This document shows positions 393-52,534 of a stretch of 52,534 nt of DNA, in pieces. Below the pieces are notes generated by a model, which searched no databases, was not told where the DNA came from, and saw only the letters and a program-made list of their open reading frames with translations. Source of the stretch: Neocallimastix lanati (nom. inval.) (taxonomy: Eukaryota > Neocallimastigomycota > Neocallimastigomycetes > Neocallimastigales > Neocallimastigaceae); NCBI GenBank assembly GCA_016946835.1, contig JACVTC010000301.1, forward strand, positions 1 through 52,534, in the 5' to 3' direction. Made by a program: the position numbers and the translations under genes. The stretch's first letter is position 1, and every line of letters starts with the position of its first letter.

Positions 393-395
393 AAA
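377..395 (+). repeat. Left half of a 19-bp inverted repeat pair
   Basis: CGAAATGCAACACTCCAAA at 377-395 is the exact reverse complement of 6895-6913. It is far less A+T-rich than its surroundings. The other units lack it: at their junctions the sequence ending in TTTTATG replaces the first 16 bases, and shared sequence begins at the final AAA. It is either the end of an inserted element or a truncated inverted copy of the island that ends at 6913. Confidence 0.7.
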
Positions 396-1077
396 GTTAC
401 ACAAAATACTTTGACTAACATTAATTTATATAACATAAAATAAAGTAATAACTAAATTAACATAAATTATAAATATATATATACTTTATTACATAATATA
501 AAATAATTATTAAGTAGTTTTCATTATAAATAAATTAAAATTAATAATAATTTGTTAAAAAAAATTTTGTATTATAAATTTAAAAAAAAATTGTAACAAA
601 AAAAAATATAAAAAAATAGTAGGTATAATCCATTTAATTACTTATTTTTATATTAAATATAAATATTAGAAATAAAGTAATAATTTTTTTTATTATATTT
701 AAAAAAGAGTAAAACTAAATAATTTAAAAGATTTATAATTTATTTTTTTTTTTTTATTTTTAAAATATTTCATATAATAAACAAAAAAATATATATGAAA
801 GAATAAATAATAAATAGACACATAACTAAAAATTCTAAATTTATTATCTATATTACTATTTACAAAAGAAGATATTGCATTTTATATAAGGAATTAAAGA
901 ATTAGTACATTATTAAAATTTTATATAAAAATATCATAATATAATCTTTAAAAATCAATTTTAATAAAATATAAAAGAAATTTTAAATAGAATATAATAA
1001 TAAAGAAAAATATTCCTTATTTTAATGATAATTAAATTAAATTAAATTAAATTAAATTAAATTTAAAAAAAAAAAAA
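393..1077 (+). promoter_or_regulatory. 5' flank and leader of the unit-1 gene (diverged)
   Basis: This stretch upstream of the first gene copy is homologous to 10570-11246 but differs by many substitutions and small indels, including about 45 extra bases near 831-878. It ends in a (AATTA)n pentamer run (about 1029-1060) and a poly-A run that reaches directly into the ATG at 1078. An A-rich leader next to the start is common in A+T-rich eukaryotes and supports this ATG. No specific promoter box can be called in sequence this A+T-rich. Confidence 0.4.
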
Positions 1078-4000
1078 ATGGTGAATTATCGATATTTAAA
1101 TAATTATAGAGATAATAATATTAACAATATATTTTTAAGAAGAAGTAATAAATTTAGTGTAAAAAAGGAAGAAGATTTAAATGACTATTTCAAAAATAAT
1201 ATTATTACCACAATAGGTAATAAACCAAAGTATTCTTTTTTAAAAAATATCCTTGAAATTAAAAGTTGTAATCTTTTAAATTGTAAATTAGTATTAAATG
1301 GAAATGAAGTTGAATTTGAAAATGGAAAACTTATTACTACAACAGAAATAGTGAATAATGATGTTGATATTAAGATTTTAAAAGAATTAATTGAAGCAGA
1401 AACTAAGGAAATTAGAGAGATGATAGTTTTACCTCTAACTCTCAATGCCAATTTATCTACTCTAGGCTACATCATGGATGTTGAACTTTTAAAAATTGTA
1501 TCATTTTATGATAAAAATAATATTGAAAGATTAGTAAATATTTAATTTCGAAGTTTAAAGAATTCAATGATTCAGACGATGACTATAATCCTATTTATCC
1601 AAGTTTTCCTGGTGAAACTATAGATCCCAGTTCAATTTACCTATATTATTCTCAATGGCTTCATTACTTAGATCATTCCCCAGATTATGATAAAAAATCT
1701 CTCATTCCAAAAAGTTATCAATGGGGTATGAAAAAATTGGATCAAGAAGAAGAAAGTAATTCCAATTTTTTAAGTGAAATTTCAGTAGGAGATTCCAATG
1801 AAAAAAAACTAAAAATTATTTCTTATGGTGACGAAGAAGAATTTTGTCAATCTATGATGGTACTCATGCAATCTTCAGAAAATTTTGTTGAAAAGATGCA
1901 AATGACATTGATATATTTATGGGTAAGTAATAGATCATGAAAAATATATACCTAAACCAATCCGTAATTTAGAAAATTTAGCCCATGTCACCAACTCCTA
2001 TCTTAATTATTTTCGTGGTAAAAATTTACCATTTAATACCATTTATTCCTGGTTTAGTCATTTCAACATATCCTATGATGAAGTATTAATTATTGCTTTA
2101 GCATTTTCAAATCATTTTAATGTTGCTTCGATCTTAAAAAATATAGAAAATTTGAATATTTAGGTGATACACATCAAAAAATTTTAATGAAATTTTTAAA
2201 CGATTGCTCCGGAACTCATCGTTACAATGAATTTTTAAAAAAAAAGAAAGTATGGTCAAGACTTTGTGGAACTATTTATACGGATAATTTTATGAAGGAA
2301 TATCCAGAGTTGGTGAAAGATTTATTAAGAATTTCTAAGGAAGATGTTTTTAATTTTATTTCTATTAATCGATCTCGTAAATACATTGATTTTGATGAGG
2401 ATAAAGAAGAAGGAAGTGGAAACAACAGCAGTAGAGGAAATTTAGATGATCTCTATAAAAAGGAAATTGAAAAAGCTTTAAAAAGCAATAGTGAATTTCT
2501 TTCTTCAGCCACTTTTAAATCTTGTAATCTTTTAAGTAGTATTATTTCAGTGAATGGGACTGATTATGAATTTGAAAATGGAAATTATTATTAGATGAAG
2601 AGGAGGAAGAAGAGGATGAAGAACAGACGAACGAGAAGGAAAATGAAAATAATTCTAAAAGCAAGGAAGAATTATTTATGAAACCTTTAAAAAGTTTGAT
2701 GAATAAGGCCACCAAACTTATTCGACAAAAATTAAATATAGTTCTTTCTTTAAATGAAAATATTTCTAAATTAGGTTTTTGTATGGATATTCCACTCTTA
2801 AAGAAAATAGCGGTATATGACGAGTATGAAATTGAAGAAATCTATCAATTAATATCTTCAGAATTAGAAAATATAACATGTTCTCGAATCAATTATATGC
2901 CACCTTATTATAATTTCCCTCGTAATCATCTTTCCATAGAATTAACCTATAAAAGTTATTGTAAGTGGCTCCTTTCCTTGGAATTATTAAACTATGATCC
3001 AAATATGATTCCAACGAATTATAGAACTCGATTTGAACAGTATCACGATGCTGAAGTTATAGAAAATGAAGTAAGGAATATCAAATTAAAAAACTCTTTC
3101 TATCGGTCATAAAGATGAATTTTATCAAGTGATGATCCACCTCATGAGTGCCTCGGAAGCCATTTCCAAAGAAGATATTATGGATTTGCATTCCTTTATT
3201 AAGTATGAAGAGAATCGTTTAAAATATATTCCAGAAATGATTCCAAATAAAGAAAATCTTGCCAATATTATTTATCGATTGGTACTCTATTGTATGACTG
3301 AGTCACCACCTTTAGAGACCATTTTACCTTATTATACTAATGTTAATGATGTCTTAAGATTAGCTTTGGTCATGTCTGGAAATCAAGCCTCCGATTTAGG
3401 AAGATCAGTAAAATTTAAATCATTTAAAAATTCAGAAAGAAGAATATTAATGACACTCTTGAATAATTGCCGTAACCGTTATGAGGACTTTATGAAATAT
3501 AAAAATATGTGGGAAAGATTTTGTGAACGAGTACATCCTTCCAAATTCAAGAATCTTTATCCTGACTTAATAAATGATCTACTGGGAAGTTATCGTATAT
3601 TAGGTACTCCAGAACATAAAAAAATTAGAATGGAATATCGATTTTATCTTTCTCTCTATGAATTGGATGATCGATTTAAGGAATATAAAGAAAAGGTTCG
3701 TAAGTATGTTAAAGAATTAAAAAAAAAAAGAGAAGAAGAAAAGAAAAAGGAACAAGAAAAGAATGAAAATACAACTAGCACAACAAATAATACTATGAAC
3801 ACTACTTCTAATACCAATGATAATAATAATACTAATGATAATAATAATACTAATGATAATAACAATAATAATGAAAGTCTCATTAGAATTCGTGAAAGAT
3901 TGAATGTAATAAGAAATGATAAGATTTTTAATAATATAAATAAAGTATTAGGTGTGAGCGATCTTTTAATATTTCAGAACATCAAACATTCTTAAAAAAA

Positions 4001-6089
4001 TTTAATAGTATTGAAACTATGCCAAAGGATATAAGAGAATATATTCATCAATATTTATTGACAATTGCAGGCGTAGCCTATAGCAATCTATTAGTTATTA
4101 TTAATAATAATTTTCTAAATAATAGTAACTGTATTTATTGGGATTCAGAAAAACGAAAAAATATGGTTAAAAAAAATTATGAAATGGTGTATGAAGGATT
4201 ACCGGAAATTTTAATTCATCATAATGAAACTATTTTACCTACACTTAGAAGAGAACTTTTAGAAAAAAGAATTCAGGAGCTTCAACCATTCATTTTAAAA
4301 TTAAATAAACAAAATCTTCAATATAAAAAGGAAAGACCAACATTTAATTCTCAATGGACTGAATTTATGGTCAATCAACAAATAAATGAAGCCGCTCATT
4401 TGTTATCTCAAAAACCAGGAGTTTATCTTCGTCATTTAGATGAATTAATTACAAAGAGTCAAAATGAGGAGGAAATTAAAGAAATTATAACTTTTTTAGA
4501 AAAGGTAGCTCAAAAAGCTTCCGTTAAGGTACTGTTAAGTGTTATGGGCTATTTCCAAAATAGAATAGGAAAAAAAAATGAATATGAGAGCTTTTCTTAT
4601 TAAAAGTAATGATAATAGTAAAAGTAATAATAAGAAAGAGAGAGGAAGAAATGGTCATGGTAATTCCTCTATAAAAAGTTCCATTTATTATACAGATAAA
4701 GTTAAGGAACCTCTTAGAGAAGAACTTTGTCATCAAATAATTAAAATTATTGATGAAGCTCTTCTTCAAAAATTTAAAGATAAATCTCCATTCCATGGAG
4801 TTTATATTAGTCCAGAACTTCAAAAAATGTATATTCCTTTTGATCTCAGAAATGCTAGTAAAGGTTTAGAAAATTATACTAAAGGATCTCGATTAGATCT
4901 TTCCTTTAAAAATATTACTCAAGAAGAAAAGGAACAAATGGTAAAGGATGCAGAGATTGCACTTGAAAAGAAACAAGCCGAAGAAAAACAAATGTATGAT
5001 AAGAAAAAGAAGCATGAAATTGATCTCATCAATTTGAAATCAAGAATAAGTAAGAAGGAAAAAGAGATTGAAACGAAATCTAAAGCAATAAATACTCAAA
5101 ATAAATCAAAAAAAGAAATAAAACAAATCCTAAAACAATTGAATAAAGAATTAGAAAAAGACCGAAGAATAGAAACACGTTGTAGAAAAGATTTCAATAC
5201 CGCCTCAGTAAAATGGGAAAATCTAGAAAAACAGGTTCAAAAGCTTGAAAAGGATTTAGAGGATAAAAGAAATTGTCCAATCGGTGTCAGTTATAAAAGT
5301 ATTAGACTTTTCACCCTTGGATTTTCTAAATTAATTCTTGAAATATATGATGAAGATTATAATATGATGGCCCTCATTACTAAGAACTCCGATTCCGATT
5401 ATGGAACCAGTTATCAAAAACAATATCATCTATTTTTTGGTGAGGAATGGTCCACCGTATATGCCGATATAGATATTGATACCATTTTAGAACAGAAAGG
5501 AAGATATATTATGGTAAATATAGGTTCCGATTGTTGTTCATCTCAATTTGGATGGATGGAAAGAGAATTTGTTCATTCCGATGAACCTTTTGAACCATCA
5601 ACGGTTCGTCAAACCATTCAATTAAACTATCAAGGAGAAGCCAGTCCTATCGTTCTTGATTGTAAAACTCGTGAATTTATCTGGTTGGACTATTCATTCC
5701 CTCAGAAATATTATGAAAAGTTTGTTATAGCTTATCATCGATATAAAAAAATGATGCGTCATCTCAACGCTAATAATTATCAACCTGATGATGTTTATTC
5801 TGAAGAAAAAATAATGACTACAACGGATAATTATAATAAATTATTAGCTCTTAATTCGAAGATTAAAAAGAGTATCTTTTATTACTTTATGGAACCCATA
5901 CGACTTTCAATAGCTGATTTAATTCAAATTCATATTCAAGCCAGAGGAGGAAAGTATTTAGAAAAAGAAGAAGATTTAAGAGACGAAGATACTGCCTTTT
6001 ACCCTTATATGCCTTATATTAAGAAAGAAAAGGTACATTATATTAATTGTAATCAATTAGAAGTTCTACTATCCGATTATATGAATTGA
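1078..6089 (+). pseudogene. Unit 1 copy of the large MXAN_6230/SCO0854-like gene, multiply frameshifted
   Basis: The sequence aligns along its whole length with the intact gene at 11247-16244 but is broken. Single-base losses occur near 1533, 2128, 2583 and 3966, two losses occur within the rearranged stretch 1888-1945, and single-base gains occur near 3091 and 4577. The first reading frame stops at 1545 after 155 codons; open pieces then follow at 1728-1940, 2187-2594, 2678-3112, 3129-3995, 4019-4603 and 4578-6089. True substitutions lie between the start and about 2623 (for example Tyr-His to Ser-Arg near 2373 and Val to Ala near 2509). There is also an 18-bp gain in the Asn-rich repeat near 3835. 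From 4578 to the end the protein is identical to the intact copies. It may be a decaying edge copy, a recombinant with a diverged paralogue, or partly consensus error. Confidence 0.8.
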
Positions 6090-6716
6090 TAAAAAAAAAA
6101 AATTATAATGAAACAAAGCAATATATTTATATATATACGTCATATATATAATATAAGTATTGATTAAATAAGAATTTAATAAAAATTTATAATAGTTATA
6201 ATAATATATTAAAAAAATCTTTTTTTTTTAAATTTTAAATATATTTTATTTAGTTTCCTTATATATATATTACAGATATATATTTATAGTTATATTATTA
6301 TTTTTTTTTTTTTTTATAATATATTGATATAAAAATCGGAATATTCAAATTTTAATAATTTTTTTTTTATATAATAATAAAATTAAATAATAAATATTAA
6401 TAATAAATCAAATTTTATATATTATTAATTTTGTGTATTACTTTTAAAAAGAATTCTTTACTTAAAAATCAATATGTAATTAAATTTTTAATATGTATAT
6501 TAATATTAATATATATATATAATATACAATATATTTAAATAAAAGTATAATATATATAAATTTTAAAATATAAATATAATATTTTTATTTAAAAAACTAT
6601 ATATATATATATTAAGAAAAATTAAGAAAAAAAATATATATAAATTTAAATATGATAGTAATAGAAAATAAAAAAAAATAAAAAAAAAAAAATAAAGTTT
6701 ATTTATAATATAAAAT

Positions 6717-6899
6717 CCACAAAGATTAGAACTCTTTTTCCAGGTCCATGGAAAAGGAATAGCCTATATCAGGTTTACTAATTACAATTTTCTGCGATTA
6801 TGATGATAATCGATGGTTATCCTTTCTAAAGTAGATTCTAGTACGAAAAGTGTAAATTAGAATACTGGAAGACTGTTGAAAGTGAACCTGATCTTTTGG
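6717..6899 (+). ncRNA. Candidate structured RNA or foldback island, unit 1
   Basis: An island of ordinary base composition in very A+T-rich DNA folds with its ends paired. Helix 1 pairs 6717-6725 with 6892-6899 (8 pairs, one bulged C). Helix 2 is a hairpin, 6733-6742 with 6749-6758 and loop GGTCCA. Helix 3 pairs 6769-6779 with 6881-6891 (11 pairs, one G-U) and abuts helix 1 without a gap. Helix 4 pairs 6795-6801 with 6806-6812 around GATG. Helix 5 pairs 6830-6840 with 6858-6866 with a two-base bulge. A U-rich single strand (AATTTTCTG, 6786-6794) before helix 4 only loosely resembles an Sm site. I cannot assign it to a known RNA family. It could instead be a decayed foldback element or a degraded coding fragment. 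Strand is chosen only by the fold as read. Confidence 0.35.
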
Positions 6900-6913
6900 A
6901 GTGTTGCATTTCG
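6895..6913 (-). repeat. Right half of the 19-bp inverted repeat pair
   Basis: This is the exact reverse complement of 377-395. It overlaps the 3' strand of helix 1 of the structured island and the left arm of the 465-bp palindrome. Together with 377-395 it brackets the unit-1 gene at a spacing of about 6.5 kb. No convincing target-site duplication is visible outside the pair. Confidence 0.65.
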
Positions 6914-7369
6914 TAACGTGGCTTGTAAATTTAAATTTGATTCATAATTTAACAGCCTATATCTTTTTCTTTTTTAAATTATTGTAAATTAATATATAAA
7001 TAAAAATAGAAATAAATATAAATTGGTTAATTTTTTTTTTTTTTTTAAATGAAATTTAGATATTATTATTAAATATTTATTAATTTTAGCAAAAATATTA
7101 AAATATATCTTAAATACTAAAATATATCTTTAAAATTAAATATTATTTTGTATTTTATTATATATTTTGTTAGTATTTTAACAGAAAATACTAAAATATA
7201 ATAAATATTACCATATATTATTTTAAAAAAAGATATTAAAATATTTTTTTATTATTTTATTATTTATTAAAAATTAAATATTATTATTTATTTATTATAA
7301 TTTAAGCCACTCTTACATCAACGGTTTTTTAAAGTACACATTTCATATAGAGCCACGTTACGAAATGCA
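6905..7369. repeat. MITE-like inverted repeat, 19-bp arms, unit 1
   Basis: The left arm 6905-6923 and the right arm 7351-7369 (AGCCACGTTACGAAATGCA) are perfect reverse complements, enclosing about 427 bp of A+T-rich DNA without an ORF. Inside is a second hairpin, 7170-7179 with 7185-7194. Small size, terminal inverted repeats and no coding capacity fit a miniature inverted-repeat element, but no clear target duplication is seen. Two further inverted pairs overlap or follow it: 7361-7374 with 7429-7442 and 7478-7491 with 7626-7639. Confidence 0.5.
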
Positions 7370-7628
7370 CCACTTCTGCTTTAAACTTGATATGTAGTAA
7401 CATTGGAATATGTTCAATTAATAATGATAGTGGTGCATTTCGCCAATTTTTGAAAACATGTGGCGCATTAAAATGTGGCATTTCGCCAAATTGAAAATTA
7501 TTAAATAAATAAATCAATAAATAAAATATTATTAAATATTATTAATATTGAATAGAAACAAGTTTAAAAAAAATTATTTTGAATAAATATTTATTTATTT
7601 ATTCATTTATTTATATCAATACTCCATT

Positions 7629-7673
7629 TGGCGAAATGCAACCTGGCGAAATGCAATTTGGAGAAATGCAACT
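7629..7673 (+). repeat. Three tandem 15-mers TGGCGAAATGCAAYY, unit 1
   Basis: Copies lie at 7629-7643, 7644-7658 and 7659-7673, the last with A for C at position 4. All carry the GAAATGCAA core that also forms the arms of the inverted repeats upstream. A run of exact 15-bp spacing suggests either repeated element termini or a protein-binding array. Confidence 0.75.
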
Positions 7674-8381
7674 CTCCCATTAATAATATCATGTAGTATC
7701 TACATATTATCGTTGTAATTAATCTATTGTTTTTTTACTTTAGAATTATTTTGTATATGTATTTTTCTATTTAAACTCACATGTAGCTATTGTAAAATGG
7801 AAATATAGGAGATTGATTCTCTCCAAAGTTTGTATTTAAGACATTATTTAGCGGATGGGAATCTTTTTATATTTTTTCACTACTAACATTTTTTTCTTTA
7901 CATGTACATTCTAGTTATTATATGATTATTCAATAGAAAAGTTTTACGTTTTAAAGAGCTTTATTAATTGAAAAGAAAACAATTATTGAAAAGATAAAAA
8001 AAAAAAAAAAAAAAAAAAAAGATTATTCATTATAATAGAATATACAAGTGGCTTATTTTACTTAAATATCTTTGCACAAAGATTTTTGAATCGATAATTT
8101 TCTAACCCTTGTGAAAAATTATAAATATTATTACAGCAATGCAAGATAAAATCAATACTTTATAAAATCAAACATTTACAAAATCATCAAGAACAACGAT
8201 ATAATTCAAGTTTTCATATATTCAACACTACCATTTTTTTAATATTATTTATAGGGAGTTTATTTTCTCTTTTATTTTTTTTACTTTTATTTTATTATAT
8301 ATATATTAAAAACAAAATAATTATCTATTTTTATTTTTATTATTATTTTTATTTTTTACTTCTTTTATTTTATTTTTTTAG

Positions 8382-8476
8382 GCTTACCTTCTCATTCGGA
8401 TCAACTGAATCGATTTTCTGAACATTATCGTGAACTAGTTTTTGATGTTACTCACCATAGTCTGGATAATGAATAA
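8382..8476 (+). CDS. Possible 3'-terminal exon of an unrecognised gene, unit 1
   Basis: A long T-rich tract ends in TTTTTTTAG at 8381, a good 3' splice site. After it a frame stays open for about 30 codons of ordinary composition to TAA at 8474-8476, with a C-terminus ending FDVTHHSLDNE. Codons in this island are not the A/T-only kind seen around it. A matching upstream exon is not certain: an open stretch ending at about 8204 before GTTTTC would join in the right phase, but that donor is weak. I recognise no family. It may be a stranded exon carried along when the unit was amplified. Confidence 0.3.
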
Positions 8477-8576
8477 AAAAAATTACTTTATATTTAAACT
8501 TTTATTATTTGTTTTATTTTATTCAATTTTAACTAATATCACATTTTATAAAAGCTTTAAATTATATTTAAAAGAT

Positions 8577-8930
8577 AAATAAAATAAAATAAAATAAATA
8601 GTTGAAATATAAATATAAAGTACAGATTAAATAAAATAAAATATAATAAAATAAAATAAATAGTAAAATATGAATATAAAGTACAGATTAAATAAAATAA
8701 AATAAAATAAATAGTAAAATATGAATATAAAGTACAGATTAAATAAAATAAAATAAAATAAATAGTAAAATATGAATATAAAGTACAGATTAAATAAAAT
8801 AAAATAGAATAAAATTAATAGTAAAATATGAATATAAAATACAGATTGAATAAAATAAAATAAAATAAAATAAATAGTAAAATATGAATATAAAGTACAG
8901 ATTGAATAAAATAAAATAAGATAAAAGAGA
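8577..8930 (+). repeat. Minisatellite of ~51-61 bp units with TAAAA runs, unit 1
   Basis: About six copies of a motif made of (TAAAA)n, then ATAGTAAAATATGAATATA, then AAGTACAGATT. Length varies with the number of TAAAA pentamers. It is followed by three exact 13-mers TTTTATTTGATAC at 8935-8947, 8948-8960 and 8961-8973. Confidence 0.85.
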
Positions 8931-9860
8931 ATTCTTTTATTTGATACTTTTATTTGATACTTTTATTTGATACTTTTATTTTATTATATAATTATATATA
9001 TATATAGTATGATTTCAACAAAAATTATATAAATATTAATTATAATTAATATCAGAAAGATTATTTTTTTTTTTTATTTTTAAATATTATTTAATTCACT
9101 GAAAAAATAAGGCAAAAAAAAAAAAAAAATTTTTTTGGTTTTGGAAAATGCTTTTTTTAACAAATAATATAGCAATTAAATCAGATAATTACAAAATATT
9201 AAAAAATACAATATAAATTATATTAAATTTATGTTATTCCATTAGAATATCAACTATATTATTAGAAATATAAAAATTTATTAGTTTTATGTGATATTCG
9301 TTATGTATTGAATTTCTTTTACTATATATAATTTATAAAAAGTTAAAAAGTTATTTATTCAATTATTATACAAAAAAATTTATATATTATAATTTAGGTT
9401 TTAATTATTATAAAATGTGATAATTATATATTAAATAAATGATAACTACAACATTATATTAAAACTTTCTAAATATAAAATATAATTACAAAGATTTAAT
9501 ATACAAGGTAATTTTTCTATGTATATTGAAATTATCATTTTCTGTAATAATTTATATGTAAAGTATTTTATTAAAGATTAAATAAATGATTTTTTCACAA
9601 TCAATTTAAGCAAGTAAAAAAATAAATATTTATTTATATAAATGATATAAAAAATTTTCTTAGTTAACCACTTTAAAAAAATATTATTTTAGTATTATAT
9701 ATTTACATTTTAACCTATAAATTAACCTAAATAGTTTAAATATTTTTATATATGTTTTTTATGTATTAATATATTAAAGAATAATAAAATTAATTTAAAT
9801 ATATATATATTTATTTTAAAAAAAAATTGATTTAAAAATTATTGTTTGATGTATAAATTT

Positions 9861-9978
9861 GTAATAATAATTATTAATAATAAATAATAATAATAATAAT
9901 AAAAATAATAATAATAATTTATAATAAGAATAATTGGAATAAGAATAATAATTTATAATAATAATAATAATAATAATG

Positions 9979-10018
<40 letters not shown>

Positions 10019-10060
10019 TAATAATAATAATGATAATAATTTATAATTGATAATAATGAT
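9861..10060. repeat. TAA/TAATGA trinucleotide tract, unit 1
   Basis: Near-continuous TAA triplets are interrupted by TGA, TTTATAA and AAGAATAA variants. This is simple-sequence DNA with no coding signal. Confidence 0.85.
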
Positions 10061-10516
10061 ATATGTTGTTTATTTAATATAATAATACATATGTGTTATG
10101 GTTAACAAGGAAAAAAAAATAGATTTACACTAAACGTATTTCAATATTTTTTTTATTATTTTATAATTACAATATTATTTCTACCAAAGAAAAACAATAA
10201 CAAGAATAAGAATTAATATTAATTATTATATATAGTAAAGTATTAATAATATATAATTATAAATAGATATAATAAATAAGAATATATATAATAATTATAT
10301 ATATTATATGAATAATATAAACTATTTTATTATATAAACTTTAATATTTTAAAATATAAAGTGTAAATTAATATTTAAGAAATATATATAAAAAATGTAA
10401 TATAATAAATACAATATATAAATAATATAAAATACAAATTATAATATAAAATATATAATAATATAAATTATTATAATAAGATATAAATTAAATATCTGAA
10501 TATATAAATATTCAAA

Positions 10517-10548
10517 TATACAAATATGTTGCTACACATATTTGTATA
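10517..10548. repeat. Hairpin next to the unit 1/2 junction
   Basis: A perfect 12-bp stem (10517-10528 with 10537-10548) around the loop TTGCTACA lies about 20 bp before the point where homology to the unit-1 left edge begins (10570). In sequence this A+T-rich, short stems occur by chance, but the loop and position are constant in all units. Confidence 0.4.
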
Positions 10549-11246
10549 ATATCATTTGTTACTTTTATGAAAGTTACACAAAATACTCAGACTAACATTA
10601 ATTTATATAACATAAAATAAACACAATAACTAACTTAACCATAAAAAATAAATATAAATATACTTTAATTATATAATATATAAAATAATATTAATAAATA
10701 TATAAAATAATTATTAAGTTGTTTTCTATATAAATAAATTATAAAGTTAATAATTTGATAAAAAAAAAATAAAATTTATATTATTTATAGTTTTAAAAAA
10801 AATATGTAGCAAAAAAAATAGAAAAAAATAGTAGGCATAATCCATTTAACCACTTATTTTTATATTAAATATAAATATTTGAAATAAAGTAATAATTTTT
10901 TTTAACATATTTAAAAAAGAGTAAAACTATTTAAATAATTTTAAAAGGTATATAATTTTTTTTTATTATTTTTAAAATATTTCTAATAATAAATAAAAAA
11001 TTATATATGAAAGAATAAATAATATATAGATAAATAACTTGTTACATTTTATATAAGGAATTAAGACAATTATTAAAATTTTATATAAAATATATGTATT
11101 CATAATATTAATTTTTAAAAATCTAATTTTAATAAAATTATAAAAGAAGTTTTAAATAAAATATAATAATAAAGAAAAATATTCCTTATTTTAATGATAA
11201 TTAAATTAAATTAAATTAAATTAAATTAAATTTAAAAAAAAAAAAA

Positions 11247-38108: not shown

Positions 38109-38153
38109 TGGCGAAATGCAACCTGGCGAAATGCAATTTGGAGAAATGCAACT
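38109..38153 (+). repeat. Three tandem GAAATGCAA 15-mers, unit 4
   Basis: Three copies, unchanged. Confidence 0.75.
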
Positions 38154-38958: not shown

Positions 38959-39058
38959 AAAAAAATTACTTTATATTTAAACTTTTATTATTTGTTTTAT
39001 TTTATTCAATTTTAACTAATATCACATTTTATAAAAGCTTTAAATTATATTTAAAGAT

Positions 39059-39411: not shown

Positions 39412-40339
39412 AATTCTTTTATTTGATACTTTTATTTGATACTTTTATTTGATACTTTTATTTTATTATATAATTATATATATATATAGTATGATTTCAA
39501 CAAAAATTATATAAATATTAATTATAATTAATATCAGAAAGATTATTTTTTTTTTTTATTTTTAAATATTATTTAATTCACTGAAAAAATAAGGCAAAAA
39601 AAAAAAAAAATTTTTTTGGTTTGGAAAATGCTTTTTTTAACAAATAATATAGCAATTAAATCAGATAATTACAAAATATTAAAAAATACAATATAAATTA
39701 TATTAAATTTATGTTATTCCATTAGAATATCAACTATATTATTAGAAATATAAAAATTTATTAGTTTTATGTGATATTCGTTATGTATTGAATTTCTTTT
39801 ACTATATATAATTTATAAAAAGTTAAAAAGTTATTTATTCAATTATTATACAAAAAAATTTATATATTATAATTTAGGTTTTAATTATTATAAAATGTGA
39901 TAATTATATATTAAATAAATGATAACTACAACATTATATTAAAACTTTCTAAATATAAAATATAATTACAAAGATTTAATATACAAGGTAATTTTTCTAT
40001 GTATATTGAAATTATCATTTTCTGTAATAATTTATATGTAAAGTATTTTATTAAAGATTAAATAAATGATTTTTTCACAATCAATTTAAGCAAGTAAAAA
40101 AATAAATATTTATTTATATAAATGATATAAAAATTTTCTTAGTTAACCACTTTAAAAAAATATTATTTTAGTATTATATATTTACATTTTAACCTATAAA
40201 TTAACCTAAATAGTTTAAATATTTTTATATATGTTTTTTATGTATTAATATATTAAAGAATAATAAAATTAATTTAAATATATATATATTTATTTTAAAA
40301 AAAAATTGATTTAAAAATTATTGTTTGATGTATAAATTT

Positions 40340-40457
40340 GTAATAATAATTATTAATAATAAATAATAATAATAATAATAAAAATAATAATAATAATTTA
40401 TAATAAGAATAATTGGAATAAGAATAATAATTTATAATAATAATAATAATAATAATG

Positions 40458-40497
<40 letters not shown>

Positions 40498-40539
40498 TAA
40501 TAATAATAATGATAATAATTTATAATTGATAATAATGAT
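40340..40539. repeat. TAA tract, unit 4
   Basis: Same interruptions as the other units. Confidence 0.85.
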
Positions 40540-40995
40540 ATATGTTGTTTATTTAATATAATAATACATATGTGTTATGGTTAACAAGGAAAAAAAAATA
40601 GATTTACACTAAACGTATTTCAATATTTTTTTTATTATTTTATAATTACAATATTATTTCTACCAAAGAAAAACAATAACAAGAATAAGAATTAATATTA
40701 ATTATTATATATAGTAAAGTATTAATAATATATAATTATAAATAGATATAATAAATAAGAATATATATAATAATTATATATATTATATGAATAATATAAA
40801 CTATTTTATTATATAAACTTTAATATTTTAAAATATAAAGTGTAAATTAATATTTAAGAAATATATATAAAAAATGTAATATAATAAATACAATATATAA
40901 ATAATATAAAATACAAATTATAATATAAAATATATAATAATATAAATTATTATAATAAGATATAAATTAAATATCTGAATATATAAATATTCAAA

Positions 40996-41027
40996 TATAC
41001 AAATATGTTGCTACACATATTTGTATA
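40996..41027. repeat. Junction hairpin, unit 4/5
   Basis: Stem and loop unchanged; the junction follows at 41049. Confidence 0.4.
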
Positions 41028-41725
41028 ATATCATTTGTTACTTTTATGAAAGTTACACAAAATACTCAGACTAACATTAATTTATATAACATAAAATAAA
41101 CACAATAACTAACTTAACCATAAAAAATAAATATAAATATACTTTAATTATATAATATATAAAATAATATTAATAAATATATAAAATAATTATTAAGTTG
41201 TTTTCTATATAAATAAATTATAAAGTTAATAATTTGATAAAAAAAAAATAAAATTTATATTATTTATAGTTTTAAAAAAAATATGTAGCAAAAAAAATAG
41301 AAAAAAATAGTAGGCATAATCCATTTAACCACTTATTTTTATATTAAATATAAATATTTGAAATAAAGTAATAATTTTTTTTAACATATTTAAAAAAGAG
41401 TAAAACTATTTAAATAATTTTAAAAGGTATATAATTTTTTTTTATTATTTTTAAAATATTTCTAATAATAAATAAAAAATTATATATGAAAGAATAAATA
41501 ATATATAGATAAATAACTTGTTACATTTTATATAAGGAATTAAGACAATTATTAAAATTTTATATAAAATATATGTATTCATAATATTAATTTTTAAAAA
41601 TCTAATTTTAATAAAATTATAAAAGAAGTTTTAAATAAAATATAATAATAAAGAAAAATATTCCTTATTTTAATGATAATTAAATTAAATTAAATTAAAT
41701 TAAATTAAATTTAAAAAAAAAAAAA

Positions 41726-44700
41726 ATGGTGAATTATCGATATTTAAATAATTATAGAGATAATAATATTAACAATATATTTTTAAGAAGAAGTAATAAA
41801 TTTAGTGTAAAAAAGGAAGAAGATTTAAATGACTATTTCAAAAATAATATTATTACCACAATAGGTAATAAACCAAAGTATTCTTTTTTAAAAAATATCC
41901 TTGAAATTAAAAGTTGTAATCTTTTAAATTGTAAATTAGTATTAAATGGAAATGAAGTTGAATTTGAAAATGGAAAACTTATTACTACAACAGAAATAGT
42001 GAATAATGATGTTGATATTAAGATTTTAAAAGAATTAATTGAAGCAGAAACTAAGGAAATTAGAGAGATGATAGTTTTACCTCTAACTCTCAATGCCAAT
42101 TTATCTACTCTAGGCTACATCATGGATGTTGAACTTTTAAAAATTGTATCATTTTATGATAAAAATAATATTGAAAGATTAAGTAAATATTTAATTTCGA
42201 AGTTTAAAGAATTCAATGATTCAGACGATGACTATAATCCTATTTATCCAAGTTTTCCTGGTGAAACTATAGATCCCAGTTCAATTTACCTATATTATTC
42301 TCAATGGCTTCATTACTTAGATCATTCCCCAGATTATGATAAAAAATCTCTCATTCCAAAAAGTTATCAATGGGGTATGAAAAAATTGGATCAAGAAGAA
42401 GAAAGTAATTCCAATTTTTTAAGTGAAATTTCAGTAGGAGATTCCAATGAAAAAAACTAAAAATTATTTCTTATGGTGACGAAGAAGAATTTTGTCAATC
42501 TATGATGGTACTTATGCAATCTTCAGAAAATTTTGTCGAAGAAGATGTACAAGATATTAATACATTTATGATTAAAGTAATAGATCACGAAAAATATATA
42601 CCTAAACCAATCCTTAATTTAGAAAATTTAGCCCATGTCACCAACTCCTATCTTAATTATTTTCGTGGTAAAAATTTACCATTTAATACCATTTATTCCT
42701 GGTTTAGTCATTTCAACATATCCTATGATGAAGTATTAATTATTGCTTTAGCATTTTCAAATCATTTTAATGTTGCTTCGAATCTTAAAAAATATAGAAA
42801 ATTTGAATATTTAAGTGATACACATCAAAAAATTTTAATGAAATTTTTAAACGATTGCTCCGGAACTCATCGTTACAATGAATTTTTAAAAAAAAAGAAA
42901 GTATGGTCAAGACTTTGTGGAACTATTTATACGGATAATTTTATGAAGGAATATCCAGAGTTGGTGAAAGATTTATTAAGAATTTCTAAGGAAGATGTTT
43001 TTAATTTTATTTCTATTAATCGATATCATAAATACATTGATTTTGATGAGGATAAAGAAGAAGGAAGTGGAAACAACAGCAGTAGAGGAAATTTAGATGA
43101 TCTCTATAAAAAGGAAATTGAAAAAGCTTTAAAAAGCAATAGTGAATTTCTTTCTTCAGTTACTTTTAAATCTTGTAATCTTTTAAGTAGTATTATTACA
43201 GTGAATGGGACTGATTATGAATTTGAAAATGGAAAATTATTATTAGATGAAGAGGAGGAAGAAGAGGATGAAGAGCAGACGAACGAGAAGGAAAATGAAA
43301 ATAATTCTAAAAGCAAGGAAGAATTATTTATGAAACCTTTAAAAAGTTTGATGAATAAGGCCACCAAACTTATTCGACAAAAATTAAATATAGTTCTTTC
43401 TTTAAATGAAAATATTTCTAAATTAGGTTTTTGTATGGATATTCCACTCTTAAAGAAAATAGCGGTATATGACGAGTATGAAATTGAAGAAATCTATCAA
43501 TTAATATCTTCAGAATTAGAAAATATAACATGTTCTCGAATCAATTATATGCCACCTTATTATAATTTCCCTCGTAATCATCTTTCCATAGAATTAACCT
43601 ATAAAAGTTATTGTAAGTGGCTCCTTTCCTTGGAATTATTAAACTATGATCCAAATATGATTCCAACGAATTATAGAACTCGATTTGAACAGTATCACGA
43701 TGCTGAAGTTATAGAAAATGAAGTAAGGAATATCAAATTAAAAACTCTTTCTATCGGTCATAAAGATGAATTTTATCAAGTGATGATCCACCTCATGAGT
43801 GCCTCGGAAGCCATTTCCAAAGAAGATATTATGGATTTGCATTCCTTTATTAAGTATGAAGAGAATCGTTTAAAATATATTCCAGAAATGATTCCAAATA
43901 AAGAAAATCTTGCCAATATTATTTATCGATTGGTACTCTATTGTATGACTGAGTCACCACCTTTAGAGACCATTTTACCTTATTATACTAATGTTAATGA
44001 TGTCTTAAGATTAGCTTTGGTCATGTCTGGAAATCAAGCCTCCGATTTAGGAAGATCAGTAAAATTTAAATCATTTAAAAATTCAGAAAGAAGAATATTA
44101 ATGACACTCTTGAATAATTGCCGTAACCGTTATGAGGACTTTATGAAATATAAAAATATGTGGGAAAGATTTTGTGAACGAGTACATCCTTCCAAATTCA
44201 AGAATCTTTATCCTGACTTAATAAATGATCTACTGGGAAGTTATCGTATATTAGGTACTCCAGAACATAAAAAAATTAGAATGGAATATCGATTTTATCT
44301 TTCTCTCTATGAATTGGATGATCGATTTAAGGAATATAAAGAAAAGGTTCGTAAGTATGTTAAAGAATTAAAAAAAAAAAGAGAAGAAGAAAAGAAAAAG
44401 GAACAAGAAAAGAATGAAATACAACTAGCACAACAAATAATACTATGAACACTACTTCTAATACCAATGATAATAATAATACTAATGATAATAACAATAA
44501 TAATGAAAGTCTCATTAGAATTCGTGAAAGATTGAATGTAATAAGAAATGATAAGATTTTAATAATATAAATAAAGTATTAGGTGTGAGCGATCTTTTTA
44601 ATATTTCAGAACATCAAACATTCTTAAAAAAATTTAATAGTATTGAAACTATGCCAAAGGATATAAGAGAATATATTCATCAATATTTATTGACAATTGC

Positions 44701-46717
44701 AGGCGTAGCCTATAGCAATCTATTAGTTATTATTAATAATAATTTTCTAAATAATAGTAACTGTATTTATTGGGATTCAGAAAAAACGAAAAAATATGGT
44801 TAAAAAAAATTATGAAATGGTGTATGAAGGATTACCGGAAATTTTAATTCATCATAATGAAACTATTTTACCTACACTTAGAAGAGAACTTTTAGAAAAA
44901 AGAATTCAGGAGCTTCAACCATTCATTTTAAAATTAAATAAACAAAATCTTCAATATAAAAAGGAAAGACCAACATTTAATTCTCAATGGACTGAATTTA
45001 TGGTCAATCAACAAATAAATGAAGCCGCTCATTTGTTATCTCAAAAACCAGGAGTTTATCTTCGTCATTTAGATGAATTAATTACAAAGAGTCAAAATGA
45101 GGAGGAAATTAAAGAAATTATAACTTTTTTAGAAAAGGTAGCTCAAAAAGCTTCCGTTAAGGTACTGTTAAGTGTTATGGGCTATTTCCAAAATAGAATA
45201 GGAAAAAAAATGAATATGAGAGCTTTTCTTATTAAAAGTAATGATAATAGTAAAAGTAATAATAAGAAAGAGAGAGGAAGAAATGGTCATGGTAATTCCT
45301 CTATAAAAAGTTCCATTTATTATACAGATAAAGTTAAGGAACCTCTTAGAGAAGAACTTTGTCATCAAATAATTAAAATTATTGATGAAGCTCTTCTTCA
45401 AAAATTTAAAGATAAATCTCCATTCCATGGAGTTTATATTAGTCCAGAACTTCAAAAAATGTATATTCCTTTTGATCTCAGAAATGCTAGTAAAGGTTTA
45501 GAAAATTATACTAAAGGATCTCGATTAGATCTTTCCTTTAAAAATATTACTCAAGAAGAAAAGGAACAAATGGTAAAGGATGCAGAGATTGCACTTGAAA
45601 GAAACAAGCCGAAGAAAAACAAATGTATGATAAGAAAAAGAAGCATGAAATTGATCTCATCAATTTGAAATCAAGAATAAGTAAGAAGGAAAAAGAGATT
45701 GAAACGAAATCTAAAGCAATAAATACTCAAAATAAATCAAAAAAAGAAATAAAACAAATCCTAAAACAATTGAATAAAGAATTAGAAAAAGACCGAAGAA
45801 TAGAAACACGTTGTAGAAAAGATTTCAATACCGCCTCAGTAAAATGGGAAAATCTAGAAAAACAGGTTCAAAAGCTTGAAAAGGATTTAGAGGATAAAAG
45901 AAATTGTCCAATCGGTGTCAGTTATAAAAGTATTAGACTTTTCACCCTTGGATTTTCTAAATTAATTCTTGAAAATATATGATGAAGATTATAATATGAT
46001 GGCCCTCATTACTAAGAACTCCGATTCCGATTATGGAACCAGTTATCAAAACAATATCATCTATTTTTTGGTGAGGAATGGTCCACCGTATATGCCGATA
46101 TAGATATTGATACCATTTTAGAACAGAAAGGAAGATATATTATGGTAAATATAGGTTCCGATTGTTGTTCATCTCAATTTGGATGGATGGAAAGAGAATT
46201 TGTTCATTCCGATGAACCTTTTGAACCATCAACGGTTCGTCAAACCATTCAATTAAACTATCAAGGAGAAGCCAGTCCTATCGTTCTTGATTGTAAAACT
46301 CGTGAATTTATCTGGTTGGACTATTCATTCCCTCAGAAATATTATGAAAAGTTTGTTATAGCTTATCATCGATATAAAAAAATGATGCGTCATCTCAACG
46401 CTAATAATTATCAACCTGATGATGTTTATTCTGAAGAAAAATAATGACTACAACGGATAATTATAATAAATTATTAGCTCTTAATTCGAAGATTAAAAAG
46501 AGTATCTTGTATTACTTATGGAACCCATACGACTTTCAATAGCTGATTTAATTCAAATTCATATTCAAGCCAGAGGAGGAAAGTATTTAGAAAAAGAAGA
46601 AGATTTAAGAGACGAAGATACTGCCTTTTACCCTTATATGCCTTATATTAAGAAAGAAAGGTACATTATATTAATTGTAATCAATTAGAAGTTCTACTAT
46701 CCGATTATATGAATTGA
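41726..46717 (+). pseudogene. Unit 5 copy of the large gene, about ten frameshifts
   Basis: Relative to the intact copies, single bases are lost near 42453, 44418, 44558, 45600, 46049, 46440, 46516 and 46659, and gained near 44783 and 45973; one substitution (T to G) lies near 46509. The first frame stops at 42460 after 244 codons. Later open pieces are 42502-44448, 44585-44803, 44796-45668, 45623-45982 and 46142-46444, and the original stop TGA is at 46715-46717. Almost every change lengthens or shortens a homopolymer by one, which is the error pattern of uncorrected long reads, so inactivation in the cell is not established. Confidence 0.8.
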
Positions 46718-47348
46718 TAAAAAAAAAAAATTATAATGAAACAAAGCAATATATTTATATATTATACGTCATATATATAATATAAGTATTGATTAAATAA
46801 GAATTTAATAAAAATTTATAATAGTTATAATAATATATTAAAAAAATCTTTTTTTTTAAATTTTAAATATATTTTATTTAGTTTCCTTATATATATATTA
46901 CAGATATATATTTATAGTTATATTATTATTTTTGTTTTTTTTTTATAATATATTGATATAAAAATCGGAATATTCAAATTTTAATAATTTTTTTTTTTAT
47001 ATAATAATAAAATTAAATAATAAATATTAATAATAAATCAAATTTTATTATATTATTAATTTTGTGTATTACTTTTAAAAAGAATTCTTTACTTAAAAAT
47101 CCATATGTAATTAAATTTTTAATATGTATATTAATATTAATATATATATATAATATACAATATATTTAAATAAAAGTATAATATATATAAATTTTAAAAT
47201 ATAAATATAATATTTTTATTTAAAAAACTATATATATATATATTAAGAAAAATTAAGAAAAAAAATATATATAAATTTAAATATGATAGTAATAGAAAAT
47301 AAAAAAAAAATAAAAAAAAAAAAATAAAGTTTATTTATAATATAAAAT

Positions 47349-47536
47349 CCACAAAGATTAGAACTCTTTTTCCAGGTCCATGGAAAAGGAATAGCCTATA
47401 TCAGGTTTACTAATTACAATTTTCTGCGATTATGATGATAATCGATGGTTATCCTTTCTAAAGTAGATTCTAGTACGAAAAGTGTAAATTAGAATACTGG
47501 AAGACTGTTGAAAGTGAACCTGATCTTTTGGAGTGT
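47349..47536 (+). ncRNA. Candidate structured RNA island, unit 5
   Basis: No change from the other units, so five copies of the island are present in the window. Confidence 0.33.
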
Positions 47537-48003
47537 TGCATTTCGTAACGTGGCTTGTAAATTTAAATTTGATTCATAATTTAACAGCCTATATCTTTTT
47601 CTTTTTTAAATTATTGTAAATTAATATATAAATAAAAATAGAAATAAATATAAATTGGTTAATTTTTTTTTTTTTTTTTAAATGAAATTTAGATATTATT
47701 ATTAAATATTTATTAATTTTAGCAAAAATATTAAAATATATCTTAAATACTAAAATATATCTTTAAAATTAAATATTATTTTGTATTTTATTATATATTT
47801 TGTTAGTATTTTAACAGAAAATACTAAAATATAATAAATATTACCATATATTATTTTAAAAAAAGATATTAAAATATTTTTTTTATTATTTTATTATTTA
47901 TTAAAAATTAAATATTATTATTTATTTATTATAATTTAAGCCACTCTTACATCAACGGTTTTTTAAAGTACACATTTCATATAGAGCCACGTTACGAAAT
48001 GCA
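47537..48003. repeat. MITE-like inverted repeat, unit 5
   Basis: Arms 47537-47555 and 47985-48003 are perfect; one extra T occurs near 47876-47884. Confidence 0.5.
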
Positions 48004-48262
48004 CCACTTCTGCTTTAAACTTGATATGTAGTAACATTGGAATATGTTCAATTAATAATGATAGTGGTGCATTTCGCCAATTTTTGAAAACATGTGGCGC
48101 ATTAAAATGTGGCATTTCGCCAAATTGAAAATTATTAAATAAATAAATCAATAAATAAAATATTATTAAATATTATTAATATTGAATAGAAACAAGTTTA
48201 AAAAAAATTATTTTGAATAAATATTTATTTATTTATTCATTTATTTATATCAATACTCCATT

Positions 48263-48307
48263 TGGCGAAATGCAACCTGGCGAAATGCAATTTGGAGAAA
48301 TGCAACT
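48263..48307 (+). repeat. Three tandem GAAATGCAA 15-mers, unit 5
   Basis: Three copies, unchanged. Confidence 0.75.
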
Positions 48308-49017
48308 CTCCCATTAATAATATCATGTAGTATCTACATATTATCGTTGTAATTAATCTATTGTTTTTTTACTTTAGAATTATTTTGTATATGTATTTTT
48401 CTATTTAAACTCACATGTAGCTATTGTAAAATGGAAATATAGGAGATTGATTCTCTCCAAAGTTTGTATTTAAGACATTATTTAGCGGATGGGAATCTTT
48501 TTATATTTTTTCACTACTAACATTTTTTTCTTTACATGTACATTCTAGTTATTATATGATTATTCAATAGAAAAGTTTTACGTTTTAAAGAGCTTTATTA
48601 ATTGAAAAGAAAACAATTATTGAAAAGATAAAAAAAAAAAAAAAAAAAAAAAAAAGATTATTCATTATAATAGAATATACAAGTGGCTTATTTTACTTAA
48701 ATATCTTTGCACAAAGATTTTTGAATCGATAATTTTCTAACCCTTGTGAAAAATTATAAATATTATTACAGCAATGCAAGATAAAATCAATACTTTATAA
48801 AATCAAACATTTACAAAATCATCAAGAACAACGATATAATTCAAGTTTTCATATATTCAACACTACCATTTTTTTAATATTATTTATAGGGAGTTTATTT
48901 TCTCTTTTATTTTTTTTACTTTTATTTTATTATATATATATTAAAAACAAAATAATTATCTATTTTTATTTTTATTATTATTTTTTATTTTTTACTTCTT
49001 TTATTTTATTTTTTTAG

Positions 49018-49112
49018 GCTTACCTTCTCATTCGGATCAACTGAATCGATTTTCTGAACATTATCGTGAACTAGTTTTTGATGTTACTCACCATAGTCTG
49101 GATAATGAATAA
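49018..49112 (+). CDS. Possible 3'-terminal exon, unit 5
   Basis: Acceptor AG at 49016-49017, TAA at 49110-49112; the frame stays open despite the indels elsewhere in this unit. Confidence 0.3.
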
Positions 49113-49211
49113 AAAAAATTACTTTATATTTAAACTTTTATTATTTGTTTTATTTTATTCAATTTTAACTAATATCACATTTTATAAAAGCTTTAAATTA
49201 TATTTAAAAGA

Positions 49212-49567
49212 TAAATAAAATAAAATAAAATAAATAGTTGAAATATAAATATAAAGTACAGATTAAATAAAATAAAATATAATAAAATAAAATAAATAGT
49301 AAAATATGAATATAAAGTACAGATTAAATAAAAATAAAATAAAATAAATAGTAAAATATGAATATAAAGTACAGATTAAATAAAATAAAATAAAATAAAT
49401 AGTAAAATATGAATATAAAGTACAGATTAAATAAAATAAAATAGAATAAAATTAATAGTAAAATATGAATATAAAATACAGATTGAATAAAATAAAATAA
49501 AATAAAATAAATAGTAAAATATGAATATAAAGTACAGATTGAATAAAATAAAATAAGATAAAAGAGA
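49212..49567 (+). repeat. TAAAA minisatellite, unit 5
   Basis: Same variant order, with one extra A in the third copy near 49331. Confidence 0.85.
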
Positions 49568-50497
49568 ATTCTTTTATTTGATACTTTTATTTGATACTTT
49601 TATTTGATACTTTTATTTTATTATATAATTATATATATATATAGTATGATTTCAACAAAAATTATATAAATATTAATTATAATTAATATCAGAAAGATTA
49701 TTTTTTTTTTTTATTTTTAAATATTATTTAATTCACTGAAAAAATAAGGCAAAAAAAAAAAAAAATTTTTTTGGTTTTGGAAAATGCTTTTTTTAACAAA
49801 TAATATAGCAATTAAATCAGATAATTACAAAATATTAAAAAATACAATATAAATTATATTAAATTTATGTTATTCCATTAGAATATCAACTATATTATTA
49901 GAAATATAAAAATTTATTAGTTTTATGTGATATTCGTTATGTATTGAATTTCTTTTACTATATATAATTTATAAAAAGTTAAAAAGTTATTTATTCAATT
50001 ATTATACAAAAAAATTTATATATTATAATTTAGGTTTTAATTATTATAAAATGTGATAATTATATATTAAATAAATGATAACTACAACATTATATTAAAA
50101 CTTTCTAAATATAAAATATAATTACAAAGATTTAATATACAAGGTAATTTTTCTATGTATATTGAAATTATCATTTTCTGTAATAATTTATATGTAAAGT
50201 ATTTTATTAAAGATTAAATAAATGATTTTTTCACAATCAATTTAAGCAAGTAAAAAAATAAATATTTATTTATATAAATGATATAAAAAATTTTCTTAGT
50301 TAACCACTTTAAAAAAATATTATTTTAGTATTATATATTTACATTTTAACCTATAAATTAACCTAAATAGTTTAAATATTTTTATATATGTTTTTTATGT
50401 ATTAATATATTAAAGAATAATAAAATTAATTTAAATATATATATATTTATTTTAAAAAAAAATTGATTTAAAAATTATTGTTTGATGTATAAATTTG

Positions 50498-50614
50498 TAA
50501 TAATAATTATTAATAATAAATAATAATAATAATAATAAAAATAATAATAATAATTTATAATAAGAATAATTGGAATAAGAATAATAATTTATAATAATAA
50601 TAATAATAATAATG

Positions 50615-50654
<40 letters not shown>

Positions 50655-50697
50655 TAATAATAATAATGATAATAATTTATAATTGATAATAATGATA
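50498..50697. repeat. TAA tract, unit 5
   Basis: Same interruptions as the other units. Confidence 0.85.
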
Positions 50698-51152
50698 TAT
50701 GTTGTTTATTTAATATAATAATACATATGTGTTATGGTTAACAAGGAAAAAAAAATAGATTTACACTAAACGTATTTCAATATTTTTTTTATTATTTTAT
50801 AATTACAATATTATTTCTACCAAAGAAAAACAATAACAAGAATAAGAATTAATATTAATTATTATATATAGTAAAGTATTAATAATATATAATTATAAAT
50901 AGATATAATAAATAAGAATATATATAATAATTATATATATTATATGAATAATATAAACTATTTTATTATATAAACTTTAATATTTTAAAATATAAAGTGT
51001 AAATTAATATTTAAGAAATATATATAAAAAATGTAATATAATAAATACAATATATAAATAATATAAAATACAAATTATAATATAAAATATATAATAATAT
51101 AAATTATTATAATAAGATATAAATTAAATATCTGAATATATAAATATTCAAA

Positions 51153-51184
51153 TATACAAATATGTTGCTACACATATTTGTATA
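51153..51184. repeat. Junction hairpin, unit 5/6
   Basis: Stem and loop unchanged; the junction follows at 51206. Confidence 0.4.
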
Positions 51185-51883
51185 ATATCATTTGTTACTT
51201 TTATGAAAGTTACACAAAATACTCAGACTAACATTAATTTATATAACATAAAATAAACACAATAACTAACTTAACCATAAAAAATAAATATAAATATACT
51301 TTAATTATATAATATATAAAATAATATTAATAAATATATAAAATAATTATTAAGTTGTTTTCTATATAAATAAATTATAAAGTTAATAATTTGATAAAAA
51401 AAAAATAAAATTTATATTATTTATAGTTTTAAAAAAAATATGTAGCAAAAAAAATAGAAAAAAAATAGTAGGCATAATCCATTTAACCACTTATTTTTAT
51501 ATTAAATATAAATATTTGAAATAAAGTAATAATTTTTTTTAACATATTTAAAAAAGAGTAAAACTATTTAAATAATTTAAAAGGTATATAATTTTTTTTA
51601 TTATTTTTAAAAATATTTCTAATAATAAATAAAAAATTATATATGAAAGAATAAATAATATATAGATAAATAACTTGTTACATTTTATATAAGGAATTAA
51701 GACAATTATTAAAATTTTATATAAAATATATGTATTCATAATATTAATTTTTAAAAATCTAATTTTAATAAAATTATAAAAGAAGTTTTAAATAAAATAT
51801 AATAATAAAGAAAAATATTCCTTATTTTAATGATAATTAAATTGAAATTAAATTAAATTAAATTAAATTTAAAAAAAAAAAAA

Positions 51884-52534
51884 ATGGTGAATTATCGATA
51901 TTTAAATAATTATAGAGATAATAATATTAACAATATATTTTTAAGAAGAAGTAATAAATTTAGTGTAAAAAAGGAAGAAGATTTAAATGAACTATTTCAA
52001 AAATAATATTATTACCACAATAGGTAATAAACCAAAGTATTCTTTTTTTAAAAAATATCCTTGAAATTAAAAGTTTGTAATCTTTTAAATTGTAAATTAG
52101 TATTAAATGGAAATGAAGTTGAATTTGAAAATGGAAAACTTATTACTACAACAGAAATAGTGAATAATGATGTTGATATTAAGATTTTAAAAGAATTAAT
52201 TGAAGCAGAAACTAAGGAAATTAGAGAGATGATAGTTTTACCTCTAACTCTCAATGCCAATTTATCTACTCTAGGCTACATCATGGATGTTGAACTTTAA
52301 AAATTGTATCATTTTATGATAAAAATAATATTGAAAGATTAAGTAAATATTAATTTCGAAGTTTAAAGAATTCAATGATTCAGACGATGACTATATCCTA
52401 TTTATCCAAGTTTCCTGGTGAAACTATAGATCCCAGTTCAATTTACCTATATTATTCTCAATGGCTTCATTACTTAGATCATTCCCCAGATTATGATAAA
52501 AAATCTCTCATTCCAAAAAAGTTATCAATGGGGT
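51884..52534 (+). pseudogene. Unit 6 copy of the large gene, 5' part only, frameshifted and cut by the window end
   Basis: The ATG at 51884 follows the usual poly-A leader. One extra A near 51990 brings a stop at 52004-52006 after 40 codons. Two more single-base gains near 52042 and 52075 restore the frame, which stays open to TAA at 52298-52300, caused by loss of one T. Further single-base losses lie near 52351, 52395 and 52411 and a gain near 52519. This is the highest indel density in the window, in its last 650 bases, and supports a low-quality contig end. Confidence 0.8.

Follow-up and report, generated by a model that had tools for sequence, protein, structure and literature searches.

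A chromosomal tandem array with near-identical inner units and diverged edges carries a large gene distantly related to a bacterial family in the anaerobic gut fungus Neocallimastix lanati

We analyzed a stretch of 52,534 bases (the window) that is the entire contig JACVTC010000301.1, here termed C226, of the 199 Mb, 762-contig genome assembly of the anaerobic gut fungus Neocallimastix lanati. The window has a GC content of 20% and holds a tandem array of a large gene that is organized as five head-to-tail units of ~10.16 kb followed by the start of a sixth unit. Comparing the window with itself at a shift of one unit gives a single alignment of 41,546 columns with 99.70% identity, and further alignments are present at shifts of two, three and four units. 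The first 40 bases of the gene also recur without a mismatch at positions 1078, 11247, 21409, 31569, 41726 and 51884, with the units being 10,169, 10,162, 10,160, 10,157 and 10,158 bases long. A chance origin of this repeat pattern is out of the question. Each unit pairs a single uninterrupted gene, which has 1665 or 1671 codons in its intact copies, with a spacer of ~5.2 kb. A preliminary description of the window had claimed at least five head-to-tail units of this length that all contain the same gene. The units are indeed present, but the genes are of two types, with copy 1 being of type A and copies 2 to 5 of type B. Note that the window is a complete contig, so its right end marks only where the assembly stopped.

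Beginning on the left, positions 1..392 are a flank that is common to a second contig, C85 (from 290569), and that contains at 100-392 a dispersed repeat of the genome with matches on many contigs. This is followed by a diverged (~80%) left edge of the array (393..875) that shares homology with the final portion of the inner spacer (79-83% identity), with near-identity to the inner units starting at 875. All of the gene copies are on the forward strand. Copy 1 (type A, 1078..6089) has a frame that is broken at codon 155, while its C85 counterpart behind the same flank is intact (1671 codons). Downstream of spacer 1 (6090..11246), copy 2 (type B, 11247..16244) has an intact 1665-codon frame (protein P0001), and copy 3 (type B, 21409..26406), located beyond spacer 2 (16245..21408), is also intact and identical to copy 2. 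Spacer 3 (26407..31568) leads to copy 4 (type B, 31569..36565), where a break at codon 406 leaves two overlapping open reading frames (ORFs). Copy 5 (type B, 41726..46717, with an approximate end) lies between spacers 4 (36566..41725) and 5 (46718..51883) and has its first break at codon 244 with further breaks behind it. Finally, copy 6 (51884..52534) consists of the first 651 bases of the gene, is cut by the contig end and has a frame that is broken at codon 40.

Regarding the spacers, spacer 2 contains a dispersed repeat (17838-18541) and a minisatellite with a 56- or 163-base period (18739-19088). This minisatellite is present at the same place in the other spacers, and related sequences occur on many contigs, most of them 77-93% identical. 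A second gene or a known RNA in the spacer is ruled out by the longest ORF of spacer 2, which is 62 amino acids, by zero Rfam families in 11000-21500 and by the lack of a tRNA in the window.

The assembly also reveals the chromosomal setting of the array. Specifically, positions 1-25602 of the window align to C85 (316 kb), which continues from the left flank through two complete units and ends 4,186 bases into a third. On the other side, C223 (3.7 Mb) begins within a spacer, contains one gene and continues into the right flank. The array is therefore chromosomal, with C85 entering it from the left and C223 exiting it on the right, and, judged by the assembly, it is too long for the assembler to cross. 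There is also a possible overlap between the end of C226 and the start of C223 (0 mismatches and 17 gaps over 5.3 kb), in which case six copies would be the minimum for the array as well, if C226 is right. At the level of the assembly there is one locus with at least six gene copies on C226, with near-identical inner units and with diverged outer edges. The preliminary description had offered repeated passage around a circular molecule as one origin of the repeats. Joined as they are to flank in C85 and C223, the array edges argue against a free circle being the only source; an additional circular pool beside the chromosomal array is possible.

The same description had the array starting cleanly at position 393, which is not what the edges look like. 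The region 393-875 together with ~2 kb further to the left beyond the window is 79-90% identical, in pieces, to the inner spacer, and diverged spacer sequence extends past the left border of the window as far as roughly C85:289,000. On C223, the right edge matches the start of the spacer at 80-83% identity, and the last gene there differs from type B by 14 changes that are all within its last 191 codons. Head-to-tail units with inner copies that are more alike than the edges are a feature of concerted evolution in a tandem array, and divergence outside with identity inside is the pattern that unequal crossing-over and conversion produce. The diverged (~80%) outer flanks indicate an older duplication and the near-identical inner units indicate a recent expansion. 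Thus, recent amplification and strong homogenization, which had been offered as alternatives, are both supported as two phases of one history. Approximately 1.8 kb of the spacer is absent at both edges and carries dispersed repeats, so the original duplication may have been repeat-mediated.

The likeness of the inner units is evident in both genes and spacers. The coding regions of C226 copies 2 and 3 show no difference over 5,156 alignment columns, and those of C85 copies 1 and 2 show none over 5,138 columns. Among the eight spacers compared there are zero substitutions common to two copies, all 11 single substitutions fall within two spacers, those closest to the right end of C226 and of C85, and the other differences are short indels. 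This is congruent with the earlier observation that even the microsatellites are unchanged from unit to unit. Intact frames are present in 5 of the 10 copies on the three contigs, with 1665 codons in two copies on C226 and one on C223, and 1671 codons in two copies on C85. Coding indel events (with those in homopolymers in parentheses) number 2 (1) in copy 4, 12 (10) in copy 5, 8 (6) in the 651 bases of copy 6, 25 (15) in C85 copy 3 and up to 9 (6) in C226 copy 1, with some of these counts inflated by gap placement. The indels and breaks rise towards the contig ends and are mostly in homopolymers, as errors would be. Sequence error is the likeliest cause of most of the frame breaks and is shown for copy 1 only, which exhibits 0 substitutions between the two contigs and is broken in C226 and intact in C85. 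This rules out copy 1 as a true pseudogene, and we doubt that true pseudogenes are the cause of the other broken copies. For copies 4 and 5, neither of which is covered by any other contig, error is the presumed cause with real variation between nuclei being the alternative.

Type A comprises C226 copy 1 and C85 copies 1 and 2, and type B comprises the remaining copies. The two types differ by 18 bases in frame and by 25 substitutions (7 synonymous and 18 non-synonymous), which correspond to per-site synonymous (pS) and non-synonymous (pN) differences of 0.0075 and 0.0044, respectively, and a pN/pS of about 0.59. Nearly all of the changed codons (21/22) fall within codons 152-517, and 10/22 cluster in codons 271-288. 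When counted from the same flank, C85 has the order A-A-B and C226 the order A-B-B-B-B-B, with copy 6 being typed as B by the single marker within its length. This indicates either that arrays of different structure are present in the culture or that one contig is misjoined. A second haplotype contig for the left flank was not found, as matches elsewhere to the first 1.9 kb of the query were all shorter than 50 bases (40 of 2605 candidates scored).

We also searched for relatives of the encoded protein. P0001 matches the NCBIfam family NF041916 (MXAN_6230/SCO0854 family RING domain protein) in five stretches with 169.8 bits and an E of 8.1e-50. It does not reach the curated cut-off of 600 bits, nor do the three fungal paralogs (143.4 to 329.9 bits), and Pfam does not find in it the RING domain (PF14447) that is found in a Streptomyces member of NF041916. 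The array protein is also matched by phrog_33734 (E 6.5e-28). PADLOC assigns it to zero families, and sequence searches of the PDB gave chance-level rows only (one at E 0.54, and a designed protein at E 0.5 and TerD 2kxt at E 0.89). Searches of the genome recovered four loci of this family, which are the array and the single loci on C90 (2215-codon frame), C82 (1016 codons) and C3 (1040 codons). Weak matches on C346 and C588, which involve the RING part of the profile only, were left out of this count.

Family scans recovered 78 loci in bacterial genomes, from 200 stretches and with the top 80 of 108 relatives retained, as well as 25 loci in viral contigs, from 85 stretches. ORFs were read for 71 of these 103 loci, five of which (three partial and two short) were kept out of the tree. 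The resulting tree has 72 rows, composed of 66 relatives, four fungal rows (those of the array gene and of C90 being cut down to their later part), L043 and L044. This quick tree groups all four fungal proteins in a single clade (support 100). This clade is located inside forks with support of 95, 80 and 83 that contain Lachnospiraceae, one other Bacillota metagenome-assembled genome, a human-faeces scaffold and viral contigs, with the nearest row being a viral contig. This position would fit transfer from a gut bacterium or phage, and other bacterial-like genes of anaerobic gut fungi have been reported as transfers (PMC8106346). Of the 25 viral contigs that carry the family (L123-L147), 4 are >300 kb. 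In addition, there is a partial match in Rhodococcus phage Weasels2 (E 2e-6, 11% of the query) and a weak match only in Xanthomonas phage XacN1 (E 8e-3, 4% of the query).

Information on the fold comes from a Lachnospiraceae relative, L048, whose structure was predicted with a mean pLDDT (predicted local distance difference test) of 89.3. This model matches four PDB chains at E 0.001 or better (E 3.5e-7 to 5.8e-5). Three of these, 3ibz (the best match, E 3.5e-7) and two chains of 2qz7, are named TerD or homologue, and the fourth, 2qng, has an unassigned function. Part of this bacterial relative thus has the fold of TerD (PF02342). Comparison with viral models gave 12 matches at E 0.001 or better, four of which run along most of the length. 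One viral match is a predicted phage TROVE-domain protein (E 2.9e-5), a possible likeness to the RNA-binding helical repeats of the TROVE/Ro60 type. Most of the L048 model is also covered by a match to the cytoplasmic protein of Lactobacillus phage LpeD (E 7.3e-32), at 19% identity and with no function named. We describe the array protein as distantly related to a bacterial family that has a TerD fold and may also have a TROVE-like helical part. The preliminary description had proposed a conflict or stress protein, and through this modeled relative the proposal is supported at the level of the family only.

In the array protein itself a helical module is doubled, with residues 62-418 aligning to residues 482-837 at 33% identity over 375 columns. 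The motifs D-x-D-L-S and H-S-G-D-I are present in 52/52 aligned relatives (the H in 51), whereas neither is present in the array protein, the alignment of which is uncertain in this stretch. One alignment contained these 52 relatives and the window piece, and another contained 45 relatives. Matches of C82 to the array copies also skip the region of the motifs, at about residues 756-826. Both acidic motifs are retained in C82 and C3, and C90 seems to be without them, as judged by eye from its translation. TerD binds calcium at an acidic ligand motif. Loss of the acidic motifs suggests that ligand sensing of the TerD kind is probably absent from the amplified protein, whose working part is more likely to be the helical modules. 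Recognition of nucleotide derivatives has been proposed for TerD domains (PMC7159879) and a role in RNA repair for TROVE proteins (PMC7824862). Since the sensor-like motif is lost in the very gene that multiplied, the role of the helical part of this family becomes testable.

The array is known in kind. Like the CUP1 array of Saccharomyces cerevisiae, which codes for a copper-binding metallothionein and can change copy number by unequal crossing-over, it is a head-to-tail array of a fungal gene (PMC4232551). Unlike CUP1, the gene has 1665-1671 codons, the edges have long diverged and the array is known from one assembly only. It is a good new case on account of its gene, host and edge structure. 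Among the titles listed in the literature searches there was no report of this array or of a TROVE-TerD fusion, and no paper on MXAN_6230 was found.

We consider it probable that the locus is a chromosomal tandem array of a transferred bacterial-family gene that recently expanded in this anaerobic gut fungus and that would most likely act by dosage. A gene of the bacterial family with a TerD-fold part would have passed from a gut bacterium or phage into the fungus, where it would have been duplicated to four loci, with the helical module being doubled in the amplified gene. One locus, duplicated long ago, would then have been recently expanded by unequal crossing-over and gene conversion, both of which would keep the units alike. 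More copies would provide more of a cytoplasmic binding or scaffold protein for a stress or conflict response. From sequence we infer this cytoplasmic role and its amplification through dosage. Of the two roles suggested in the preliminary description, dosage or diversification, dosage is the better one.

Several observations weigh against this explanation. Pfam lists no family for P0001 at E up to 1, and the TerD profile (PF02342) matches nothing in P0001 or elsewhere in this genome; two of the 14 control genomes do yield matches. Structure prediction for the fungal piece (residues 480-1665) gave a poor model, with a mean pLDDT of 64.6, that has no PDB match at E 0.001 or better; the TerD assignment comes from the bacterial relative L048. 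The TROVE likeness derives from the one predicted phage protein; Pfam gives no TROVE match, and no solved TROVE structure is among the 50 PDB matches listed for the L048 model. The tree is a quick one without bootstrap and has a long fungal stem (1.09), and this fungus was the one eukaryote in the collections searched. We took 88 of 180 neighboring ORFs of bacterial relatives, from 47 of 48 loci, and these matched 147 Pfam families; among the 25 families shown, none was present in more than 2 of the 88 ORFs and there was no functional lead. RNA 3'-phosphate cyclase and Hen1_N were each present in 1 of the 88, with the cyclase being placed at L087 by eye. A pN/pS of 0.59 over 25 changes reflects weak constraint at best. 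C226 and C85 conflict at unit 2 (B versus A), so one of them may be misjoined. Finally, frames are broken in 5 of the 10 copies (C226 copies 1, 4 and 5, which are whole, and two more that are cut by a contig end), with copy 1 being the sole broken copy that has an intact counterpart showing error.

A serious rival, although one that we regard as rather unlikely, is that the expansion is neutral and transient, having arisen by unequal exchange and being useless to the fungus. The inner units are so alike that the expansion must be recent, constraint between A and B is weak, half of the copies have broken frames, and the other three family loci recovered are single, all of which a neutral expansion would accommodate. 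It accounts less well for half of the 10 copies, distributed over three contigs and both types, keeping a 1665- or 1671-codon frame, and the breaks that it would invoke rise towards the contig ends and sit mostly in homopolymers, as expected of errors. Unlikely to a greater degree is a chromosomal array that is short, with two or three units, and a C226 whose extra length stems from the assembler or from a circular, extrachromosomal form of the unit. C226 does repeat the left flank of C85 and yet conflicts with C85 at unit 2, a search returned no further contig for this unique flank, and the inner units are indistinguishable, so an assembler could miscount them. However, C85 itself runs from the flank through two complete units into a third (A-A-B), C223 independently carries the other edge, and contigs stop inside the array from both sides, as is expected of a long array. 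We also think it doubtful that a captured bacterial or phage conflict protein was rebuilt, with gain of the second helical module and loss of the sensor motif, and amplified at one locus as a dosage-tuned intracellular defence or RNA-handling platform with an array length that varies between nuclei of one culture. A diversification locus, in which gene conversion would yield variants of a recognition protein, is very improbable: the A/B changes do cluster, with 10/22 changed codons in 271-288, but because the inner units are nearly all alike with this one short divergent tract, because the remaining units are identical save for probable errors and the right edge, because non-synonymous change is lower per site than synonymous change, and because genome searches with the gene and the protein gave, among the matches listed, no donor from elsewhere that is close enough to A or B, it receives little support.

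The assembly of both array edges, the internal A/B marker and the intact copies make copy-number change in an anaerobic fungus directly traceable. The locus is also a eukaryotic occurrence of a bacterial family that is poorly understood.

Regarding the wider genome, matches to CBM_10 (fungal dockerin) were obtained in this assembly (150 listed, with 150 of 1440 candidates scored) and in 0 of 14 control genomes. A genome with many fungal dockerins is typical of anaerobic gut fungi. Dockerin genes with many identical scores are clustered at C106:76-210 kb, C112:2.94-3.01 Mb, C740:723-775 kb, C761:563-587 kb and C490:707-722 kb, which suggests that these are other tandem gene families of this genome. 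Upstream of the array, an ORF at C85:283.4-284.6 kb (L040:7352-8551) begins, by eye, with two cysteine-rich repeats that resemble dockerins and continues with an esterase-like part. To the right of the array, an aspartate/serine-repeat ORF sequence is present twice, at C223:17823-18717 and 27051-28000, with the two copies being ~9.2 kb apart and 94-96% identical, and between them are ORFs (in L041) with pieces that by eye resemble a Copia-type retroelement.

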